Positions 1-28,033 of a stretch of 38,070 nt of DNA are shown here, piece after piece. The stretch lies in contig JACBFI010000032.1 of the NCBI GenBank assembly GCA_013391385.1, positions 1 to 38,070 of the forward strand, read 5' to 3'. The notes under the pieces were generated by a model. The model worked only from the letters and a program-made list of their open reading frames with translations, ran no database searches and was not told where the DNA came from. A program made the translations under genes and the position numbers. This DNA comes from Sediminibacterium sp. Gen4 (GTDB lineage Bacteria; Bacteroidota; Bacteroidia; Chitinophagales; Chitinophagaceae). Numbering within the stretch: position 1 is the stretch's first letter; the number at the start of each line of letters is the position of its first letter.

Positions 1-17
1 GGCCTTTCTTTAATCTG

Positions 18-85
18 TGGGAGCACACGGGTTCGAACCGCGGACCCTCCCGACTAAGGTCGGGATGCACTAAATCAACTGAGCT
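18..85 (-). pseudogene. tRNA-like 3' segment, short unit 2
   Basis: On the minus strand this keeps the tRNA-Val D-arm word AGCTCAGTTG, the T arm and the acceptor 3' strand ending TGCTCCCA. It lacks the 5' acceptor strand GGGAGCA. The anticodon arm is replaced by a hairpin CCCGAC-CTTA-GTCGGG, which would give an 8-nt loop with a normal 5-bp stem. The D-arm 3' part pairs instead with upstream sequence (92-102 with 68-78, 11 bp). It is unlikely to work as a tRNA. Confidence 0.75.
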
Positions 86-102
86 TGTTAATTGATTTAG
101 TG
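68..102 (-). other. Covarying stem-loop of short unit 2
   Basis: An 11-bp perfect stem is formed by CACTAAATCAA and TTGATTTAGTG (minus strand) around a 13-nt loop that contains the tRNA D-arm word AGCTCAG. The sister unit at 598-632 has C for T on one side and G for A on the other, so pairing is preserved. That supports selection on the structure. Confidence 0.65.
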
Positions 103-136
103 TTATTAATGCTCGGAACACTTCGGAAGTGTACAT

Positions 137-164
137 AAAAAAACCATTCGCCTTTGGCGGATGG
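137..164 (-). terminator. Terminator-like hairpin, short unit 2
   Basis: On the minus strand CCATCCGCC, a 3-nt loop AAA and GGCGAATGG are followed by seven U. One A-C mismatch weakens this copy. The same fold heads every unit of the array. Confidence 0.6.
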
Positions 165-179
165 CCTTTCTTTATTCTG

Positions 180-247
180 TGGGAGCACACGGGTTCGAAC
201 CGCGGACCCTCCCGACTGAGGTCGGGATGCACTAAATCAACTGAGCT
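180..247 (-). pseudogene. tRNA-like 3' segment joined to GIY-YIG copy A
   Basis: This is the same tRNA-Val-derived 3' part as the other copies (D-arm word, replaced anticodon arm CCCGAC-CTCA-GTCGGG, intact T arm and acceptor 3' strand). It directly follows, and overlaps by 11 nt, the end of the GIY-YIG reading frame at 237. There is no 5' acceptor strand. Confidence 0.75.
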
Positions 248-491
248 TATTAATAAGGGCTAAAATTTTGACTTTACTTTTCCATGCTTTTATCTGCCTT
301 TCTCTATCCAGAGCTTCTTTTTTAGTTGAGAATTGCTCGTAATACATTAATATCCAATCTGCGTTATTTCCAGTAAACCCTTTATGATTTGTATTGTGTC
401 TTCTTATTCGTTGAGATAATTCATCACTAGTCGATCCGATATAGAATCGATTTTTAGAGGGTGAAAAAAGTATGTAGGTTTTGTATGTCAT
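237..491 (-). CDS. Small GIY-YIG nuclease family protein, copy A
   Basis: An 84-aa single-domain GIY-YIG protein, related to the YhbQ/UPF0213 type. It shows the TYI strand (residues 5-7), YIG (17-19), R28, H32 and the metal-binding Glu E64 in the motif RERQIKAW. Nothing in the active site looks broken. GIY-YIG proteins cut DNA; the target here is unknown. I start at the ATG at 491 because the upstream in-frame ATG at 515 lies next to the terminator U-run and adds residues unlike the family. The last codons KLS-stop are encoded by the tRNA D-arm word AGCTCAGTTGA, so the gene is physically joined to the tRNA-like segment. It is nearly identical to copy B at 766. Confidence 0.85.
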   Translation of the reverse strand: MTYKTYILFSPSKNRFYIGSTSDELSQRIRRHNTNHKGFTGNNADWILMYYEQFSTKKEALDRERQIKAWKSKVKILALINKLS

Positions 492-504
492 TGGGTTACG
501 GCAT

Positions 505-532
505 AAAAAAACCATCCGCCTTTGGCGGATGG
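505..532 (-). terminator. Terminator-like hairpin upstream of GIY-YIG copy A
   Basis: On the minus strand a perfect 9-bp stem CCATCCGCC/GGCGGATGG with a 3-nt loop is followed by seven U. It follows the tRNA-like segment at 548-615 and would separate units transcriptionally. Confidence 0.7.
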
Positions 533-547
533 CCTTTCTTTAATCTG

Positions 548-615
548 TGGGAGCACACGGGTTCGAACCGCGGACCCTCCCGACTGAAGTCGGGATGCAC
601 TAAACCAACTGAGCT
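548..615 (-). pseudogene. tRNA-like 3' segment, short unit 1
   Basis: Same layout as 18-85. The anticodon arm is replaced by a 7-bp hairpin CCCGACT-TC-AGTCGGG. The T arm and acceptor 3' strand are identical to tRNA-Val at 1077, and the identity runs on past the tRNA 3' end into the trailing CAGATTAAAG. The 5' acceptor strand is absent. Confidence 0.75.
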
Positions 616-632
616 TGTTAATTGGTTTAGTG
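598..632 (-). other. Covarying stem-loop of short unit 1
   Basis: An 11-bp perfect stem CACTAAACCAA/TTGGTTTAGTG (minus strand) with a 13-nt loop. Compared with 68-102 it differs at one base on each arm, at paired positions. Confidence 0.65.
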
Positions 633-665
633 TTATTGTTACGCTGAACCTTTGAAAGTGTACAT

Positions 666-693
666 AAAAAAACCATCCACATGGTGTGAATGG
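666..693 (-). terminator. Terminator-like hairpin, short unit 1
   Basis: On the minus strand CCATTCACA, loop CCA and TGTGGATGG are followed by seven U. The stem core is CACA/TGTG rather than the CGCC/GGCG seen in other units, so pairing is kept although both arms changed. Confidence 0.65.
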
Positions 694-708
694 CCTTTCT
701 TTTCTCTG

Positions 709-776
709 TGGGAGCACACGGGTTCGAACCGCGGACCCTCCCGACTGAGGTCGGGATGCACTAAATCAACTGAGCT
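709..776 (-). pseudogene. tRNA-like 3' segment joined to GIY-YIG copy B
   Basis: Same as 180-247: D-arm word, CCCGAC-CTCA-GTCGGG in place of the anticodon arm, intact T arm and acceptor 3' strand, no 5' acceptor strand. It overlaps the last 11 nt of the GIY-YIG gene at 766. Confidence 0.75.
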
Positions 777-1020
777 TATTAATAAGGGCTAAAATTTTGA
801 CTTTACTTTTCCATGCTTTTATCTGCCTTTCTCTATCCAGAGCTTCTTTTTTAGTTGAGAATTGCTCGTAATACATTAATATCCAATCTGCGTTATTTCC
901 AGTAAACCCTTTATGATTTGTATTGTGTCTTCTTATTCGTTGAGATAATTCATCGCTAGTCGATCCGATATAGAATCGATTTTTAGAGGGTGAAAAAAGT
1001 ATGTAGGTTTTGTATGTCAT
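766..1020 (-). CDS. Small GIY-YIG nuclease family protein, copy B
   Basis: An 84-aa protein identical to copy A over the called length. The two genes differ by one silent change seen near 955, and one further base differs just upstream of the start near 1024. It has the same TYI/YIG motif, R28, H32 and E64. It is the first gene after tRNA-Val and its terminator. An upstream in-frame ATG at 1044 sits at the U-run of the terminator hairpin and is a less likely start. The stop codon lies in the tRNA-like D arm. Near identity with copy A, beside diverged short units, suggests recent duplication or gene conversion. Confidence 0.85.
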   Translation of the reverse strand: MTYKTYILFSPSKNRFYIGSTSDELSQRIRRHNTNHKGFTGNNADWILMYYEQFSTKKEALDRERQIKAWKSKVKILALINKLS

Positions 1021-1033
1021 TGGTTTACGGCAT

Positions 1034-1061
1034 AAAAAAACCATCCGCCTTTGGCGGATGG
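1034..1061 (-). terminator. Terminator after tRNA-Val
   Basis: On the minus strand a perfect 9-bp stem CCATCCGCC-AAA-GGCGGATGG is followed by seven U, 15 nt past the tRNA 3' end. This is a good intrinsic terminator and the apparent parent of the hairpins in the array. Confidence 0.8.
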
Positions 1062-1076
1062 CCTTTCTTTAATCTG

Positions 1077-1151
1077 TGGGAGCACACGGGTTCGAACCGC
1101 GGACCCTCTGCTTGTAAGGCAGATGCTCTAAACCAACTGAGCTATGCTCCC
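1077..1151 (-). tRNA. tRNA-Val (anticodon UAC)
   Basis: A complete 75-nt cloverleaf: acceptor GGGAGCA/TGCTCCC with discriminator A, D arm with AGTTGGTTTAGA loop, anticodon stem TCTGC/GCAGA around CTTACAA (anticodon UAC at 1114-1116, reads GUA), variable loop GGGTC, and T arm with TTCGAAC. CCA is not encoded. It has its own promoter at 1167-1196 and a terminator at 1034-1061. It is the only full tRNA in the window and the evident source of the tRNA-like segments downstream. Confidence 0.95.
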
Positions 1152-1220: not shown

Positions 1221-1511
1221 TTAGTTGAGTTGCAAGGCCGGTAAACGATAATGCTGACTGTCATACACAAACAATTCTTCAATCTCATAAGTCCAGTATT
1301 TATACAAGGGAGATTTTACCAGTAATTTGTCTGCTTCCTCCTTACTTTCTGTATTCAATGTGATCCAGCAGGTCTGGCTTTCCATGCTCACGGCATAGCT
1401 GTCGATGATTCCTTTATTCAATAAGAAATTCACATAAGTACGATGGGGTGGAACCAGCGACATAAAATCATCATCCATCTGAAACTTAATGATCGCCTGA
1501 AACTTTTTCAT
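1221..1511 (-). CDS. Small conserved protein, possibly YciI/muconolactone-isomerase-like fold
   Basis: A 96-aa soluble protein with no signal peptide or membrane segment. The pattern is a strand (KKFQAIIKFQ), a long helix-like middle, a second strand (TCWITLNTES), a helix with EEADKLL and a third strand (YEIEELFVYD). That resembles one half of a dimeric alpha-beta barrel such as YciI or muconolactone isomerase-like proteins. The resemblance is by pattern only and no catalytic residue can be named. It is divergent from the DUF486 gene at 1643. Confidence 0.55.
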   Translation of the reverse strand: MKKFQAIIKFQMDDDFMSLVPPHRTYVNFLLNKGIIDSYAVSMESQTCWITLNTESKEEADKLLVKSPLYKYWTYEIEELFVYDSQHYRLPALQLN

Positions 1512-23824: not shown

Positions 23825-26743
23825 ATGAGAAAACTAATACTCGCATTTTTGTTATTGCCGGGTATATCCACCGTCGCTCAGAAAAAGCCGTTAGATCATT
23901 CGGTTTATGATGACTGGCAGTCTATCGGTGAACGCGTGATCAGTAATGACGGCAAATATGTAGCCTACGCCGTGAATCCACAAGAAGGAGATGGCATGGT
24001 GTACTTACAAAGTACAAATGGAAATTATCAGGTAACGATTCCTCGCGGGTATAGTATCTCCATCACGGAAGACAGTCGTTTTTTGGTTTGTAGAATCAGA
24101 CCTTTTTATAAAGATACCCGTGATGCCAGAATCAAAAAGCGTCGCCCCGATGAAATGCCCAAAGACAGTTTGGCCTATGTGGCATTAGGGTCTACAGATA
24201 TTACCAAAGTTCCTAGAATTAAAAGTTATAAAATACCCGATGAGTCGGGTATGTGGCTGGCTTATTTACTTGATAAACCATTGCCTGAAACCACCAGACC
24301 CCAGCAGCCGGATTCATTAACCCGACTCAACAATATGCTGAAAATGGCAGATAGTTTAATGCGTGTTGCAGACAGTATCCGCAATAAAGCCAATGAAGCA
24401 AAAACAACCGGGATGTCTGTTCTCCAAAACAGAAACGGAAGACCAGCGGCACGTACGAATGGGGAGCCCGTGGAAGAAGGTACTGTATTGGTTTTGCGTA
24501 ATTTACAGACAGGGGAAGAACGCAGGTTTGAGTTGGTGAAAGACTATTTTTTCAACCGTAAGGGGAATGTATTATTGGTAGAGACTACCAGAAAAAATAG
24601 TGACGAAAAATCATTGGCTACAGTAATCAAAGTAAACCTGGATGCAAACAATACCCGTACCATCTTCACTAAATTCAATGAAGCCAAAAGTTTTAGAATG
24701 GATGAAGAGGGTAAGCAGGTGGCATTTGTAGCAGAAAGAGATAGTAGTAGTAAGGCATTGCAGAAATTCTATAAACTGTATTATTACAAAGATGGAATGG
24801 ATAGTGCTCGGTTATTGGCTGATGGTAAAACCAAAGGATTACCTGCTAATTGGACCATTAGTGATAATCCTGGAAGTGTTGTATTCAGTAAATCCGGGAA
24901 TCGTCTAATGCTAGGTACACTACCGATATGGCCGGTACGAGATACCACCGTTCCTGAAATAGACAGAGTGAATGTTGATATATGGCATTACAACGATGAT
25001 TATATTCAACCGGTACAACTTAGAAATCTCAATACAGAATTGAGAAGAAGCTATTTGGCCTATTTCGATTTAGATAAAAATGAAATTGTGCAGTTAGGGA
25101 GTGAAAAAATGCGCAATATCGTACCCACGCAAGAGGGAGATGGCAATATTTTTTACGGAGTATCTGATTTTGGGAAACGTGTAGCTACACAATGGCAGGG
25201 ATTCAGCTTCAACGATGTATTCAGGATCAATCCCTTGACCGGACAATCACAAGTGATATCCAAAGATCTGAAAGGGGGTAATTTACAGCCTTCATACACC
25301 GGTAAATACCTCATATTCTTTGATGAGCGTAAGCAAAAATACTTTGCTTATAATAGCGTTACCGGACAAGTATACCAGATCGCTAAAGACATCAAAAATG
25401 CATTAGGGGATGAAGAGAATGATGTACCGGATGATCCCAATGCTTATGGTGTTGTAAAATGGATGGAGGGTGACAAGTCTGTATTGATATACGATCGTTA
25501 TGATATCTGGCAAGTAGATCCGGAAGGAGTAGCGCCTTCTGTTTGTCTCACAAACGGAAGAAAAGATAAAACCGTTATCCGATATGTAAATACAGATCCT
25601 AATGAACGTTTTATCACTGCGTCACAAAAATTACTGTTGCGTGTATTTGATGAAAAAGATAAAAGTGCCGGACTCGCAACCTTGGATCTCTCTACTCAAA
25701 CTTTCAACATTGTATTCAAAGAGAAAGTAAGTGTAGGTTTTGCTATTCAAAAGGCTAAAACTGCGGATGTATTGACTTACACCAAGGAAACTTTCCAGCA
25801 TTCTCCGAATGTATATGTACATGTGATGGGTACACAGGCCAAACAATTATCCAATACAAATCCTCAACAGGCAACTTACAATTGGGGAACTGCTGAGTTA
25901 TTCAAATGGAAATCATATACTGGAAAAGAAGCAGAAGGTATTGTATACAAGCCAGAAGATTTTGATCCAAAGAAAAAATATCCCATGATTGTGTATTTCT
26001 ATGAGAGAAGCAGTCAAGGTTTGTATGGTTATGTTGCACCATCACCCACACCTTCCAGACTGAATATTTCTTTCTTTGTAAGTCGCGGTTATGTGGTTTT
26101 TGTACCGGATATCTGGTATAAAAAAGGATATCCAGGTCAGGGTGCTTATGATTATATCTTAAGTGGAACCAGAGCAGTTGTGAAGCAAGGGTATGTAGAT
26201 AGTACAAAATTGGGTTTACAGGGACAAAGCTGGGGTGGATACCAAATTGCGCATTTGATTACCAGAACCAATTTATATGCTGCAGCTTGGGCTGGTGCTC
26301 CTGTTGTAAATATGACCAGTGCGTATGGTGGTATCAGATGGGGAACAGGTTTGAACAGACAGTTTCAATATGAGCAAACGCAAAGTCGTATTGGGGCTAC
26401 TTTATGGGAGAAGCCGAATTTGTACATAGAAAATTCACCCCTGTTCCATTTACCAAAAGTAAAAACGCCATTGGTAATCATGGCAAATGATGCCGATGAT
26501 GCAGTGCCTTGGTATCAAGGGATTGAATACTATACAGCTATGCGCAGACTGGGTAAAAAAGTATGGATGCTGAATTATAATAATGAAGCACATAACCTGG
26601 TAGAACGCAAAAACAGAAAAGACATCCAGATTCGTGAACAGCAGTTCTTTGATCATTTCCTCAAAGGAGAAAAACCTTCTAAGTGGATTGCAGAAGGGGT
26701 GCCTGCTACGATGAAAGGAAAAGATATGGGATTAGGCTATTGA
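23825..26743 (+). CDS. Prolyl oligopeptidase family (S9) serine peptidase
   Basis: A 972-aa exported protein with signal peptide MRKLILAFLLLPGISTVAQ. A long N-terminal beta-propeller region (about 25-690) is followed by an alpha/beta-hydrolase domain. Catalytic triad: S802 in GQSWGGY, an Asp near 891 in NDADDAVPW, and H923 in NEAHNL. This is the dipeptidyl-peptidase-like S9 architecture, likely periplasmic peptide degradation. A low-complexity Lys/Arg/Asp region lies near residues 155-215. I start at 23825, since the in-frame TTG at 23792 would precede the signal peptide. A strong terminator lies at 26815. Confidence 0.9.
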   Translation: MRKLILAFLLLPGISTVAQKKPLDHSVYDDWQSIGERVISNDGKYVAYAVNPQEGDGMVYLQSTNGNYQVTIPRGYSISITEDSRFLVCRIRPFYKDTRDARIKKRRPDEMPKDSLAYVALGSTDITKVPRIKSYKIPDESGMWLAYLLDKPLPETTRPQQPDSLTRLNNMLKMADSLMRVADSIRNKANEAKTTGMSVLQNRNGRPAARTNGEPVEEGTVLVLRNLQTGEERRFELVKDYFFNRKGNVLLVETTRKNSDEKSLATVIKVNLDANNTRTIFTKFNEAKSFRMDEEGKQVAFVAERDSSSKALQKFYKLYYYKDGMDSARLLADGKTKGLPANWTISDNPGSVVFSKSGNRLMLGTLPIWPVRDTTVPEIDRVNVDIWHYNDDYIQPVQLRNLNTELRRSYLAYFDLDKNEIVQLGSEKMRNIVPTQEGDGNIFYGVSDFGKRVATQWQGFSFNDVFRINPLTGQSQVISKDLKGGNLQPSYTGKYLIFFDERKQKYFAYNSVTGQVYQIAKDIKNALGDEENDVPDDPNAYGVVKWMEGDKSVLIYDRYDIWQVDPEGVAPSVCLTNGRKDKTVIRYVNTDPNERFITASQKLLLRVFDEKDKSAGLATLDLSTQTFNIVFKEKVSVGFAIQKAKTADVLTYTKETFQHSPNVYVHVMGTQAKQLSNTNPQQATYNWGTAELFKWKSYTGKEAEGIVYKPEDFDPKKKYPMIVYFYERSSQGLYGYVAPSPTPSRLNISFFVSRGYVVFVPDIWYKKGYPGQGAYDYILSGTRAVVKQGYVDSTKLGLQGQSWGGYQIAHLITRTNLYAAAWAGAPVVNMTSAYGGIRWGTGLNRQFQYEQTQSRIGATLWEKPNLYIENSPLFHLPKVKTPLVIMANDADDAVPWYQGIEYYTAMRRLGKKVWMLNYNNEAHNLVERKNRKDIQIREQQFFDHFLKGEKPSKWIAEGVPATMKGKDMGLGY

Positions 26744-26800
26744 GGGATGGCAGATCGCAGATGTCTGAGATGTCTGATGTCGGATTTCTGATTTGAAATT
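26744..26800. repeat. 7-nt word array after the S9 gene
   Basis: Directly after the stop codon come words GATGTCT, GATGTCG and GATTTCT, the same family as at 4677 and 37934. It is separated by the terminator at 26815 from its inverted counterpart at 26859. Confidence 0.65.
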
Positions 26801-26814
26801 TTTGAAAAAAAATA

Positions 26815-26854
26815 AAGCGGCGAACACAATAAGCAGTGTTCGCCGCTTCGTTTT
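26815..26854 (+). terminator. Strong intrinsic terminator after the S9 gene
   Basis: Perfect 13-bp stem 26815-26827 with 26836-26848 (AAGCGGCGAACAC and its complement), 8-nt loop, then CG and six T. An A-run on the other side makes it possibly bidirectional. Confidence 0.85.
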
Positions 26855-26858
26855 TTCT

Positions 26859-26905
26859 CATCCGACATCCGACATCCGACATCCGACATCCGACATCCGA
26901 CATAT
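26859..26905. repeat. Tandem CATCCGA heptamers
   Basis: About six perfect 7-nt copies of CATCCGA, the complement-type word of the family at 26744 and 4677. It precedes the trhO promoter. Confidence 0.85.
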
Positions 26906-26910
26906 CCCCC

Positions 26911-26918
26911 TATCTTTG
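26911..26918 (+). promoter_or_regulatory. -7 element of trhO
   Basis: TATCTTTG fits TAnnTTTG. No TTG at the proper distance is found, because that interval is occupied by the CATCCGA repeat. The leader would be about 70 nt. Confidence 0.45.
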
Positions 26919-26961
26919 TACCGATTTTGACCACCCTGCAAGTGGTTCCATTGTTCATGGA

Positions 26962-26978
26962 TCCCGATCTGATCGGGA
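26962..26978 (+). promoter_or_regulatory. Leader hairpin before trhO
   Basis: Perfect 7-bp inverted repeat TCCCGAT-CTG-ATCGGGA ending 17 nt before the start codon. It may affect translation; there is no U-run. Confidence 0.3.
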
Positions 26979-26995
26979 CTGAAATTTGAAAAATT

Positions 26996-28033
26996 ATGCC
27001 TGTTTTACACAACCGTGTATCCAACGAAGAGTTGAAGCAACGTTTGATGGAAGAGACTTTCCATCGTATTACCATTAGTTTCTATCAGTATTTTCCTGTT
27101 AAAAATCCGCAAGAGTTCAGAGATTATTTGTACAAGCAATTGAGTGCTTTACAAGTTTTCGGGAGAATTTATGTAGCGAAAGAAGGCATTAATGCACAGA
27201 TCAGTGTCCCAGAGCATTTAATGGATGCGTTTCGTACTTTCCTTTATAGTATAGAACCATTGAATGGATTGCGTCTCAATATCGCAGTGGATGATGATGG
27301 TAAAAGTTTCTGGGTATTAAAGATCAAAGTCCGGGATAAGATTGTTGCCGATGGTATCAATGATCCCGAATTCAGTATGGAACGAAAAGGCCGTTATGTG
27401 AATGCTGCACAAATGAATGAATTGTTGAAAGATCCTGATACGATCGTGATTGATATGCGTAATCATTACGAATATGAAGTGGGGCATTTTGTAAATGCGA
27501 AAGAAGTACCCTCGGATACTTTCAGAGATCAATTACCTATGGCTGTTGATATGATGAAGGGAAATGAGGATAAGAATATCATTATGTATTGCACAGGTGG
27601 AATTCGATGTGAAAAAGCCAGTGCTTATATGTTACACCAAGGATTTAAGAACGTGTTTCATCTGGAAGGAGGAATTATCAACTATGCAAGACAAGCAAAA
27701 GAGGCCGGACTGGAAAGTAAATTCATTGGTAAAAATTTTGTTTTTGATAATCGTTTAGGTGAGCGTATTACAGAAGATGTCATTGCCAAATGTCATCAAT
27801 GTGGTAAACCTGCTGATACACACACGAATTGTAAAAACAATGGCTGTCATCTTTTATTCATACAGTGCGAAGCTTGTGCCGAAACCTATGAAGGCTGTTG
27901 TAGTCAGGAATGCAAAGACACCATTCACATGCCCGTAGAACGCCAGAAAGAGCTGCGTAAGGGTATTGAGAATGGACAAAATATTTTCAACAAGAGTAGA
28001 GTGAGGTTGAGACCGAGGTTAGGGGAAGGGTAG
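26996..28033 (+). CDS. trhO: tRNA uridine(34) hydroxylase TrhO (YceA)
   Basis: A 345-aa protein. TrhO hydroxylates U34 of tRNA with oxygen, giving ho5U, the first step to cmo5U/mo5U. The N-terminal UPF0176 part contains [16 protein letters not shown] (about 55-70). The rhodanese domain (about 140-240) has the catalytic C199 in [12 protein letters not shown]. The C-terminal region is rich in cysteines ([19 protein letters not shown] and CEAC...CCSQEC), probably metal-binding. This architecture is typical. The -7 element at 26911 is probably its own promoter. Confidence 0.9.

Follow-up and report, generated by a model that had tools for sequence, protein, structure and literature searches.

What ties a chain of short repeats, some carrying a gene for a tiny nuclease and some carrying none, to a transfer RNA (tRNA) gene? 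The question is raised by a 38,070-nucleotide (nt) stretch of Sediminibacterium sp. Gen4 DNA (G000:C27:1-38070; hereafter the window), which starts at a contig end and in which an array of units following an intact tRNA-Val(UAC) gene is broken off at base 1. The longer units carry a small GIY-YIG nuclease gene, and every unit ends in a partial copy of the tRNA in which a palindrome occupies the place of the anticodon arm. All nine small genes of this kind in the source genome adjoin tRNA genes, and with moderate confidence we suggest, from comparison of sequences, that the array may be a single example from a widespread family of tiny mobile cassettes residing at tRNA genes.

Structure of the array in the window

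The intact tRNA-Val(UAC) that anchors the array (1076-1151, minus strand, as are all features of the array) was found with ARAGORN and matches Rfam RF00005 at 70.8 bits. It is followed by four units at 1070-12, and sequence comparison bears out the order and sizes given in the initial annotation: a long unit of 368 base pairs (bp; 1070-703), a gene-less unit of 161 bp (542-702), a second long unit of 368 bp (541-174) and a second gene-less unit of 162 bp (12-173) next to the contig end. The two long units are identical at 364 of 368 positions. They alone carry an intact nuclease gene, as had been proposed, in each case an open reading frame (ORF) of 92 codons (gene 1, 766-1044 from the first ATG, matched by PF01541 in the genome search; gene 2, 237-515), and the encoded proteins are identical, with one synonymous change between the genes. 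A terminator-like hairpin, CCATCCGCC-AAA-GGCGGATGG, and a T-run lie immediately 5′ of the first ATG of gene 1 (1034-1061), and a hairpin and T-run of the same kind, likewise recognised as an inverted repeat, precede gene 2 (505-532). In the long units the T-run of this head continues without a gap into the nuclease frame's first ATG (TTTTTTTATG); judging from the sequence of gene 1, the Met at 1020 is a likelier start.

The tail of all four units is tRNA-Val from nt 9 to the 3′ end, which agrees with the earlier claim of a tRNA-derived tail. These partial copies, identified by BLAST, lie at 708-776, 547-615, 179-247 and 17-86, and the final codons and stop of nuclease gene 1 fall inside the first of them. 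In each copy an 18-bp palindrome, TCCCGAC....GTCGGGA, occupies the place of the anticodon arm (739-756, 578-595, 210-227 and 48-65). What had been noted as a CCCGAC hairpin, a mere detail of the tail, is instead a palindrome that substitutes for part of the tRNA copy and is associated with the nuclease lineage. An 11-bp inverted repeat is common to both short units (in the first, its arms are near 622-632 and 598-608), with one compensatory change between the two, CACTAAACCAA/TTGGTTTAGTG versus CACTAAATCAA/TTGATTTAGTG. A match to Qrr RNA over the array (Rfam, 20.9 bits against a threshold of 50) was regarded as chance.

One further tRNA-Val copy with the same palindrome stands at the end of contig C34 and is followed by other sequence, so this contig end is probably the far side of the array. 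About 1.3 kilobases (kb) past that far side (L307), ORFs resembling an IS3-type transposase pair were noted by eye, with no family search. Within the window itself, an intergenic repeat at 26706-27075 has one frame reading MSDVGCRMSDVGCRM, and a TCCCGAT..ATCGGGA palindrome lies nearby at 26962-26978.

Distribution at tRNA genes

A PF01541 search of the source genome found 11 places, namely two long open frames (608 and 402 codons) and the nine small genes. The tRNAs at the latter are Asp (two genes, in tandem), initiator-like Met (L002), Met(CAT) (L004), Arg(ACG), Ser(UGA), Ser(GCU) and Val (two genes), and there are two layouts: intact tRNA, nuclease, partial copy; or partial copy, nuclease, intact tRNA. 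Gene-less copies with a palindrome also occur at further tRNAs of this genome. The tRNA search gave 40 matches, of which 35 were examined (three of the other five are weak, at 30-32 bits), and 12 of the 35 have a partial tRNA copy within 1 kb (BLAST, E 0.01), with Ile and the neighbouring Ala sharing one; by eye, two more tRNAs have such a copy (Met, L255; Arg, L272). Palindromes of the form TCCCG..CGGGA number 38 in the genome versus 3 for the reversed pattern, and TCCGC..GCGGA palindromes 56 versus 5. Five of the 38 TCCCG sites are in nuclease loci; 22 of the other 33 were examined, in 20 stretches, and ten of these lie inside partial tRNAs by eye. Nine of the ten are supported by a tRNA match or neighbour, and the tenth is an interrupted Arg copy (L230).

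Two places in this genome deserve mention. Between tRNA-Ala(TGC) and tRNA-Ile(GAT) there is a palindrome-marked partial tRNA (L247, L251; G000:C55:3349-3604). Past the nuclease at L003/L230 (G000:C1:51516-52480), the partial tRNA-Arg appears by eye to be split by an insertion with ends AGAAGCTGTTTAAA/TTTAAACAGCTTCT, within the first palindrome, and its D, anticodon and T regions all seem to be palindrome-replaced.

The association extends well beyond this genome. We searched the order with a profile of the source genome's own proteins, which matched in 79 of 119 genomes; at least 150 matches were listed and loci were taken for 134, leaving aside 14 small matches (13 of them among the 15 weakest listed) and two inside very long frames. 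With the own-genome and same-genus loci the order set comprises 122 distinct loci. An intact tRNA lies within 300 bp at 86 of them, and 16 more have a tRNA copy or a more distant tRNA; among long GIY-YIG genes, taken as a control, none of 23 has an intact tRNA within 300 bp. Nuclease and tRNA are co-oriented in all 88 pairs that lie within 250 bp of each other. Named genomes were also scanned, with a bias to two peptide patterns; the best 80 out of 231 confirmed stretches were taken, and 79 of these had a recognised frame. An intact tRNA lies within 300 bp at 56 of the 79 loci, on the same strand in all 56, and at 49 of 72 once seven loci repeating order-set contigs were removed. In this same scan, 13 of the 16 loci not labelled Bacteroidota have the tRNA; their carriers include Nitrospirota, Ignavibacteriota, Fidelibacterota and records named Patescibacteria and Saccharibacteria, and since many loci come from metagenome bins, these phylum names may be wrong. 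With so many loci at tRNAs or their copies in the order and beyond Bacteroidota, the arrangement is not the chance local duplication that the initial annotation had allowed for.

Several individual loci add to this picture. At a Nitrospirota locus (L167) seven gene-less 84-bp units precede tRNA-Asn. Locus L041 (G092:C63) has, next to a tRNA-Val(TAC), a gene that reads as tRNA-Ile(TAT) and is 90% similar to it, and an identical nuclease gene follows each; from the sequence, this is perhaps a duplicated cassette with a changed anticodon in the tRNA copy. Arrays frequently stop at contig ends (for example L053, L080, L107, L116 and L248), and short-read assemblies probably break at arrays and under-report units. 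No Rfam match at the gathering threshold pointed to other RNA genes as anchors in 20 of the 37 loci that have no tRNA within 250 bp; several of the 37 contain partial tRNAs.

Truncation of the tRNA copies and their palindromes

Truncation of the copies was counted at 137 tRNA-anchored loci, 115 of the downstream type and 22 of the upstream type. Downstream copies retain nt 1-3 in 2 of 135 cases and the 3′ end in 114 of 135; upstream copies retain nt 1-3 in 80 of 107 and the 3′ end in 8 of 107. Because downstream copies are without the 5′ acceptor strand and upstream copies without the 3′ part, a marked copy cannot turn into a working tRNA. Such a pattern would be expected if a circle or array with one truncated tRNA recombined with the gene and only products that kept a working tRNA survived. 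The downstream array described by the initial annotation holds in the window, but units also stand upstream of tRNAs, with the opposite truncation.

For the palindromes we counted only those with a tRNA 8-mer close by on both sides, at 141 eligible loci. There are 145 within tRNA copies, at 81 of these loci, and 98 start with TCCCG, TCCCG..CGGGA being the commonest form overall. Of the 85 that abut tRNA on both sides, 68 overlap the anticodon arm, 38 replace the whole arm (most 27->45 or 28->46) and 11 are on the T-arm side. The palindrome differs between groups: it is TCCCGAC in the Val copies of the window, TCCGCC in initiator Met (fMet) and TCCCGCACGTGCGGGA in Asn. The initiator-Met clade has TCCGCC in nine of ten rows, with none found in the tenth (L048), and TCCGCC also occurs in L076 and L003; the Asn clade has TCCCGCA in five of six rows and TCCCGTA in one; rows with Arg or Leu have CCTGCC or CCTGTC (seven rows), and two Pro rows have TCACGC.

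The nuclease, its lineages and its relatives

Are tRNA and palindrome linked to particular nucleases? A tree of 131 nuclease proteins was built on 83 columns, with isotype taken from the nearest tRNA or best partial match and initiator and elongator Met merged. Isotype changes 31 times on the tree, against 61-73 times in 300 shuffles (93 loci, one row per locus, omitting L042 and L070, whose tRNA is unclear, and four near-identical twins); on a larger tree (147 loci) it changes 54 times, and none of 200 shuffles gave fewer than 99 changes. Palindrome type, defined by five letters, changes 15 times against 25-30 when shuffled (75 loci, 38 of them assigned by hand; L003, L004 and L077, with more than one type, were given one, and L094, L130 and L133 were dropped). 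When types were shuffled only within genomes the range was 19-29, and none of 300 shuffles was as low as 15; machine-assigned types alone gave 11 against 15-19 (46 loci). The tRNA-Val gene is thus not the specific site that the initial annotation took it for, and nuclease lineages keep to different tRNAs.

The neighbourhood of the array allowed a comparison within the genus. Homologues of the gene next to tRNA-Val (window 1221-1511) occur in 22 of 31 same-genus genomes, the source genome included. In 15 of the 21 relatives tRNA-Val(UAC) lies near that gene, in reverse orientation in one (L281), and none of the 15 has a copy; in the remaining six no tRNA was found in the stretch around the neighbouring gene.

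The window nuclease matches PF01541 with E 2.4e-15 and 57 bits, against a cut-off of 22.6 (search run on gene 2, 237-515); GIY-YIG is its sole Pfam match, and its length is about 85-92 residues. The catalytic residues of the GIY-YIG domain are a Tyr, a Tyr-x-Gly, an Arg, a His and a Glu, and Y14, Y25, G27, R36, H40 and E72 are invariant across eight small GIY-YIG proteins of the source genome. The closest solved proteins are UPF0213 (1ywl, 2.1e-14; 1zg2, 6.9e-14), followed by SLX1 (3.1e-6), with no homing enzyme among the eight solved-structure matches to E 0.1; there is a weak match to the phrog_314 homing endonuclease (7.6e-5), and TIGR01453 scores 16.3 bits, under its cut-off of 56.05. The ratio of nonsynonymous to synonymous substitution (dN/dS) indicates purifying selection in L062/L064 (0.04), L017/L115 (0.13), L013/L056 (0.06) and L063/L071 (0.19). 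PADLOC models of anti-phage defence gave no convincing match (best E 0.0023, 15.2 bits), and on that result identity as a defence system was dropped. Carriage by phages or plasmids was likewise set aside, as the searches gave just one weak phage match and two Neisseria records.

Those records, from Neisseria gonorrhoeae in a plasmid collection, provide a distant comparison. The better homologue is 37.7% identical to the window protein, and its gene (L312:600-2200) lies among 16 TTCCC..GGGAA palindromes in 3.2 kb, ten of which are TCCCG..CGGGA; we note that the palindromes around this gene form a dRS3-like cluster. The Neisseria protein groups, with support of 96, with part of a Bacteroidota clade that has no tRNA link, and not with the window proteins. 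We take this homologue to be Ssn (Ssn/NTS), a site-specific single-strand nuclease acting on such repeats. Like the proteins described here, Ssn is a small stand-alone GIY-YIG protein accompanied by TCCCG..CGGGA palindromes, whose core is also that of the palindrome in most tRNA copies, and in both a recurrent palindrome occurs near the gene and in the genome (here at 81 of 141 loci and 38 versus 3 sites). Unlike them, the Neisseria repeats in the stretch seen lie outside tRNA copies and the protein belongs with the tRNA-less clade. By analogy with Ssn, the palindrome, rather than tRNA sequence, may be the cut site.

Proposed mechanism and alternatives

An explanation has to accommodate the anatomy of the units, their generality, the truncation rule, the associations of nuclease lineage with isotype and with palindrome, and the copy-free tRNA-Val genes of relatives, all of which were directly observed. 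We propose that a cassette consists of one partial tRNA copy with an inset palindrome, mostly in the anticodon arm; some cassettes also carry a small GIY-YIG gene and others do not. Homologous recombination of this tRNA piece with a tRNA gene would insert the cassette, which would then be flanked on one side by an intact tRNA and on the other by a truncated one that bears the palindrome. The palindrome is most likely the recognition site of the nuclease, which would thereby initiate recombination; the enzyme is probably expressed only by read-through of the tRNA terminator, and weakly. The gene-less units, which bear the same kind of site, would be non-autonomous and move in trans. The initial annotation had inferred a selfish element; the combination of gene-bearing and gene-less units and the sporadic presence in the genus fit this part of its reading, and mobility itself we infer.

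Several observations weigh against this proposal. Twenty of the 122 order loci have no tRNA link at all; 15 of them form the one clade mentioned above, and the other five (L056, L080, L084, L108 and L144) are at contig ends or unresolved. BLAST gives no copy at 14 of 115 downstream-type and 2 of 22 upstream-type loci, 60 of the 141 eligible loci have no palindrome between tRNA words, and 60 of the 145 palindromes do not abut tRNA on both sides. The position of the palindrome is not a clean lineage trait and, from the sequences, seems to depend partly on the tRNA. In Asn copies it is 25->36 in L017, L118 and L121 and 24->35 in the Nitrospirota locus L167, whose nuclease is from a different clade, and other Asn copies have 32->44 (L094), 37->48 (L181) or 35->48 (L210); in Asp copies it is 38->51 in three clades and both layouts (L001, L012 and L093) and elsewhere in L050, L085, L096 and L217. 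Palindrome type may track nuclease lineage through co-inheritance, without recognition. The tandem pairs L074, L085 and L140 have dN/dS of 0.24-0.36 with few changes, and L119/L120, a close pair of the tRNA-less clade, differ by two nonsynonymous and zero synonymous changes. The flanks of the relatives' tRNA-Val genes are too divergent to place an exact insertion point. Finally, the suggested link to Ssn runs through one distant homologue.

Nine loci of the tRNA-less clade were viewed, and by eye dispersed palindromes stand on one or both sides of the gene. Among the tRNA-less loci flanked by palindromes are L016, L119, L126, L136, L141, L143, L145 and L148, and their layout recalls that of a RAYT gene among REPs.

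A more far-reaching reading is a natural cleave-and-rescue element, which we consider quite unlikely on present sequence comparisons. Here the nuclease would disable element-free tRNA genes, the element itself would always leave one intact tRNA, and loss of the element by recombination via marked copies would leave a dead tRNA.

Among the rivals, a free-standing homing endonuclease like SegB fares best, although we think it unlikely. Such an enzyme would cut double-stranded tRNA genes in the anticodon arm and be copied in by break repair, and the palindrome would destroy the target in the marked copies, leaving them uncut and unusable for deleting the element without killing the tRNA. The fidelity of nuclease lineages to tRNA isotypes, the anticodon arm as the commonest place of the palindrome and the weak phrog_314 match would suit it. 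The GIY-YIG enzyme SegB cleaves inside phage tRNA genes, and tandem amplification of tRNA and segB requires it (PMC13096335); by our own reading, its motif RAWTSGAAC is the reverse complement of a T-loop-like tRNA sequence. The copy-free tRNA-Val of 15 genomes may be the empty allele that homing would predict, yet the presumed target persists in the intact tRNA that stays beside the gene. The sequence of the palindrome also tracks nuclease lineage even within genomes, which would be needless if any hairpin sufficed, the nearest solved relatives are UPF0213 and SLX1 and not homing enzymes, and so short a protein leaves no space for a separate DNA-binding domain.

Could the units act as RNA instead? 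Chains of hairpins might surround the tRNA in a transcript, where the palindrome would keep the copies from mispairing with the real tRNA, and the host might benefit if the nuclease or the copies served, for example, in tRNA processing or as decoys. The short units of the window do fold as hairpin chains with a compensatory change between them, nuclease and tRNA are co-oriented, and one acceptor strand is missing from most copies. However, that change is seen in two units only, presence within one genus is sporadic, and related proteins in Bacteroidota and Neisseria have palindromes and no tRNA. Copies would also be poor decoys where the anticodon arm is broken, as it is by 68 of the 85 placed palindromes, although Asp and fMet copies retain the anticodon; a decoy for anticodon nucleases was disfavoured for this reason. 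On balance we find a role at the RNA level very improbable.

Chance tandem duplication beside tRNAs, with REP-like palindromes and a nuclease gene drifting in, is rejected as extremely improbable: tandem arrays do grow by unequal crossing-over, and some of the 22 examined TCCCG sites lie outside tRNA copies, but the contrast with the control genes, the uniform strand, the opposite truncation upstream and downstream and the isotype fidelity all stand against it.

Comparison with known systems

Elements that integrate at tRNA sites (attL/attR) keep the tRNA intact, and a partial tRNA copy marks their other end. The same is seen here, with the differences that a palindrome replaces part of the copy and that the 5′ part can be copied too; in the window units (161-368 bp) no integrase or recombinase gene was found, the GIY-YIG ORF being the sole recognised gene. 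RAYT is a Y1 (HUH) transposase, and no such gene was found in the window units, whose only recognised gene, where there is one, is the GIY-YIG ORF. REP/REPIN repeats with RAYT likewise combine short palindromes, a small nuclease gene, and autonomous and gene-less units (PMC3116915, PMC6006769, PMC3733652). They differ from the present case, where the enzyme is of the GIY-YIG type and the palindromes lie inside tRNA copies. In atp6 of Allomyces fungal mitochondria, an endonuclease gene reportedly sits in a host gene and a duplicated piece keeps that gene working; unlike here, this is a mitochondrial protein gene, and neither palindrome nor tRNA is known there.

SegB is larger than the window nuclease. 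SegB of phages T4/T6 resembles the present nucleases as a GIY-YIG enzyme encoded among tRNA genes; it cuts tRNA genes, and tRNA and nuclease are amplified in tandem. It is phage-borne, and the accessible part of the report describes no palindrome-marked partial tRNA copies (PMC13096335). Among the literature matches listed, which included few subscription papers, none concerned GIY-YIG genes with partial tRNA copies.

Implications

In these loci, tRNA genes and palindromic repeats meet a compact nuclease family whose palindromes differ by lineage. If our proposal is true, elements of a few hundred bases, at the 137 tRNA-anchored loci counted, land at tRNA genes generally, with no integrase involved. 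The proposal would explain small GIY-YIG proteins whose ends read into tRNA sequence, as in the window, and the partial tRNAs found around tRNA genes (12 of 35 in the source genome), perhaps also the breaks of assemblies at tRNAs. Were the cleave-and-rescue reading to hold, an essential gene would be the element's anchor, in several phyla.

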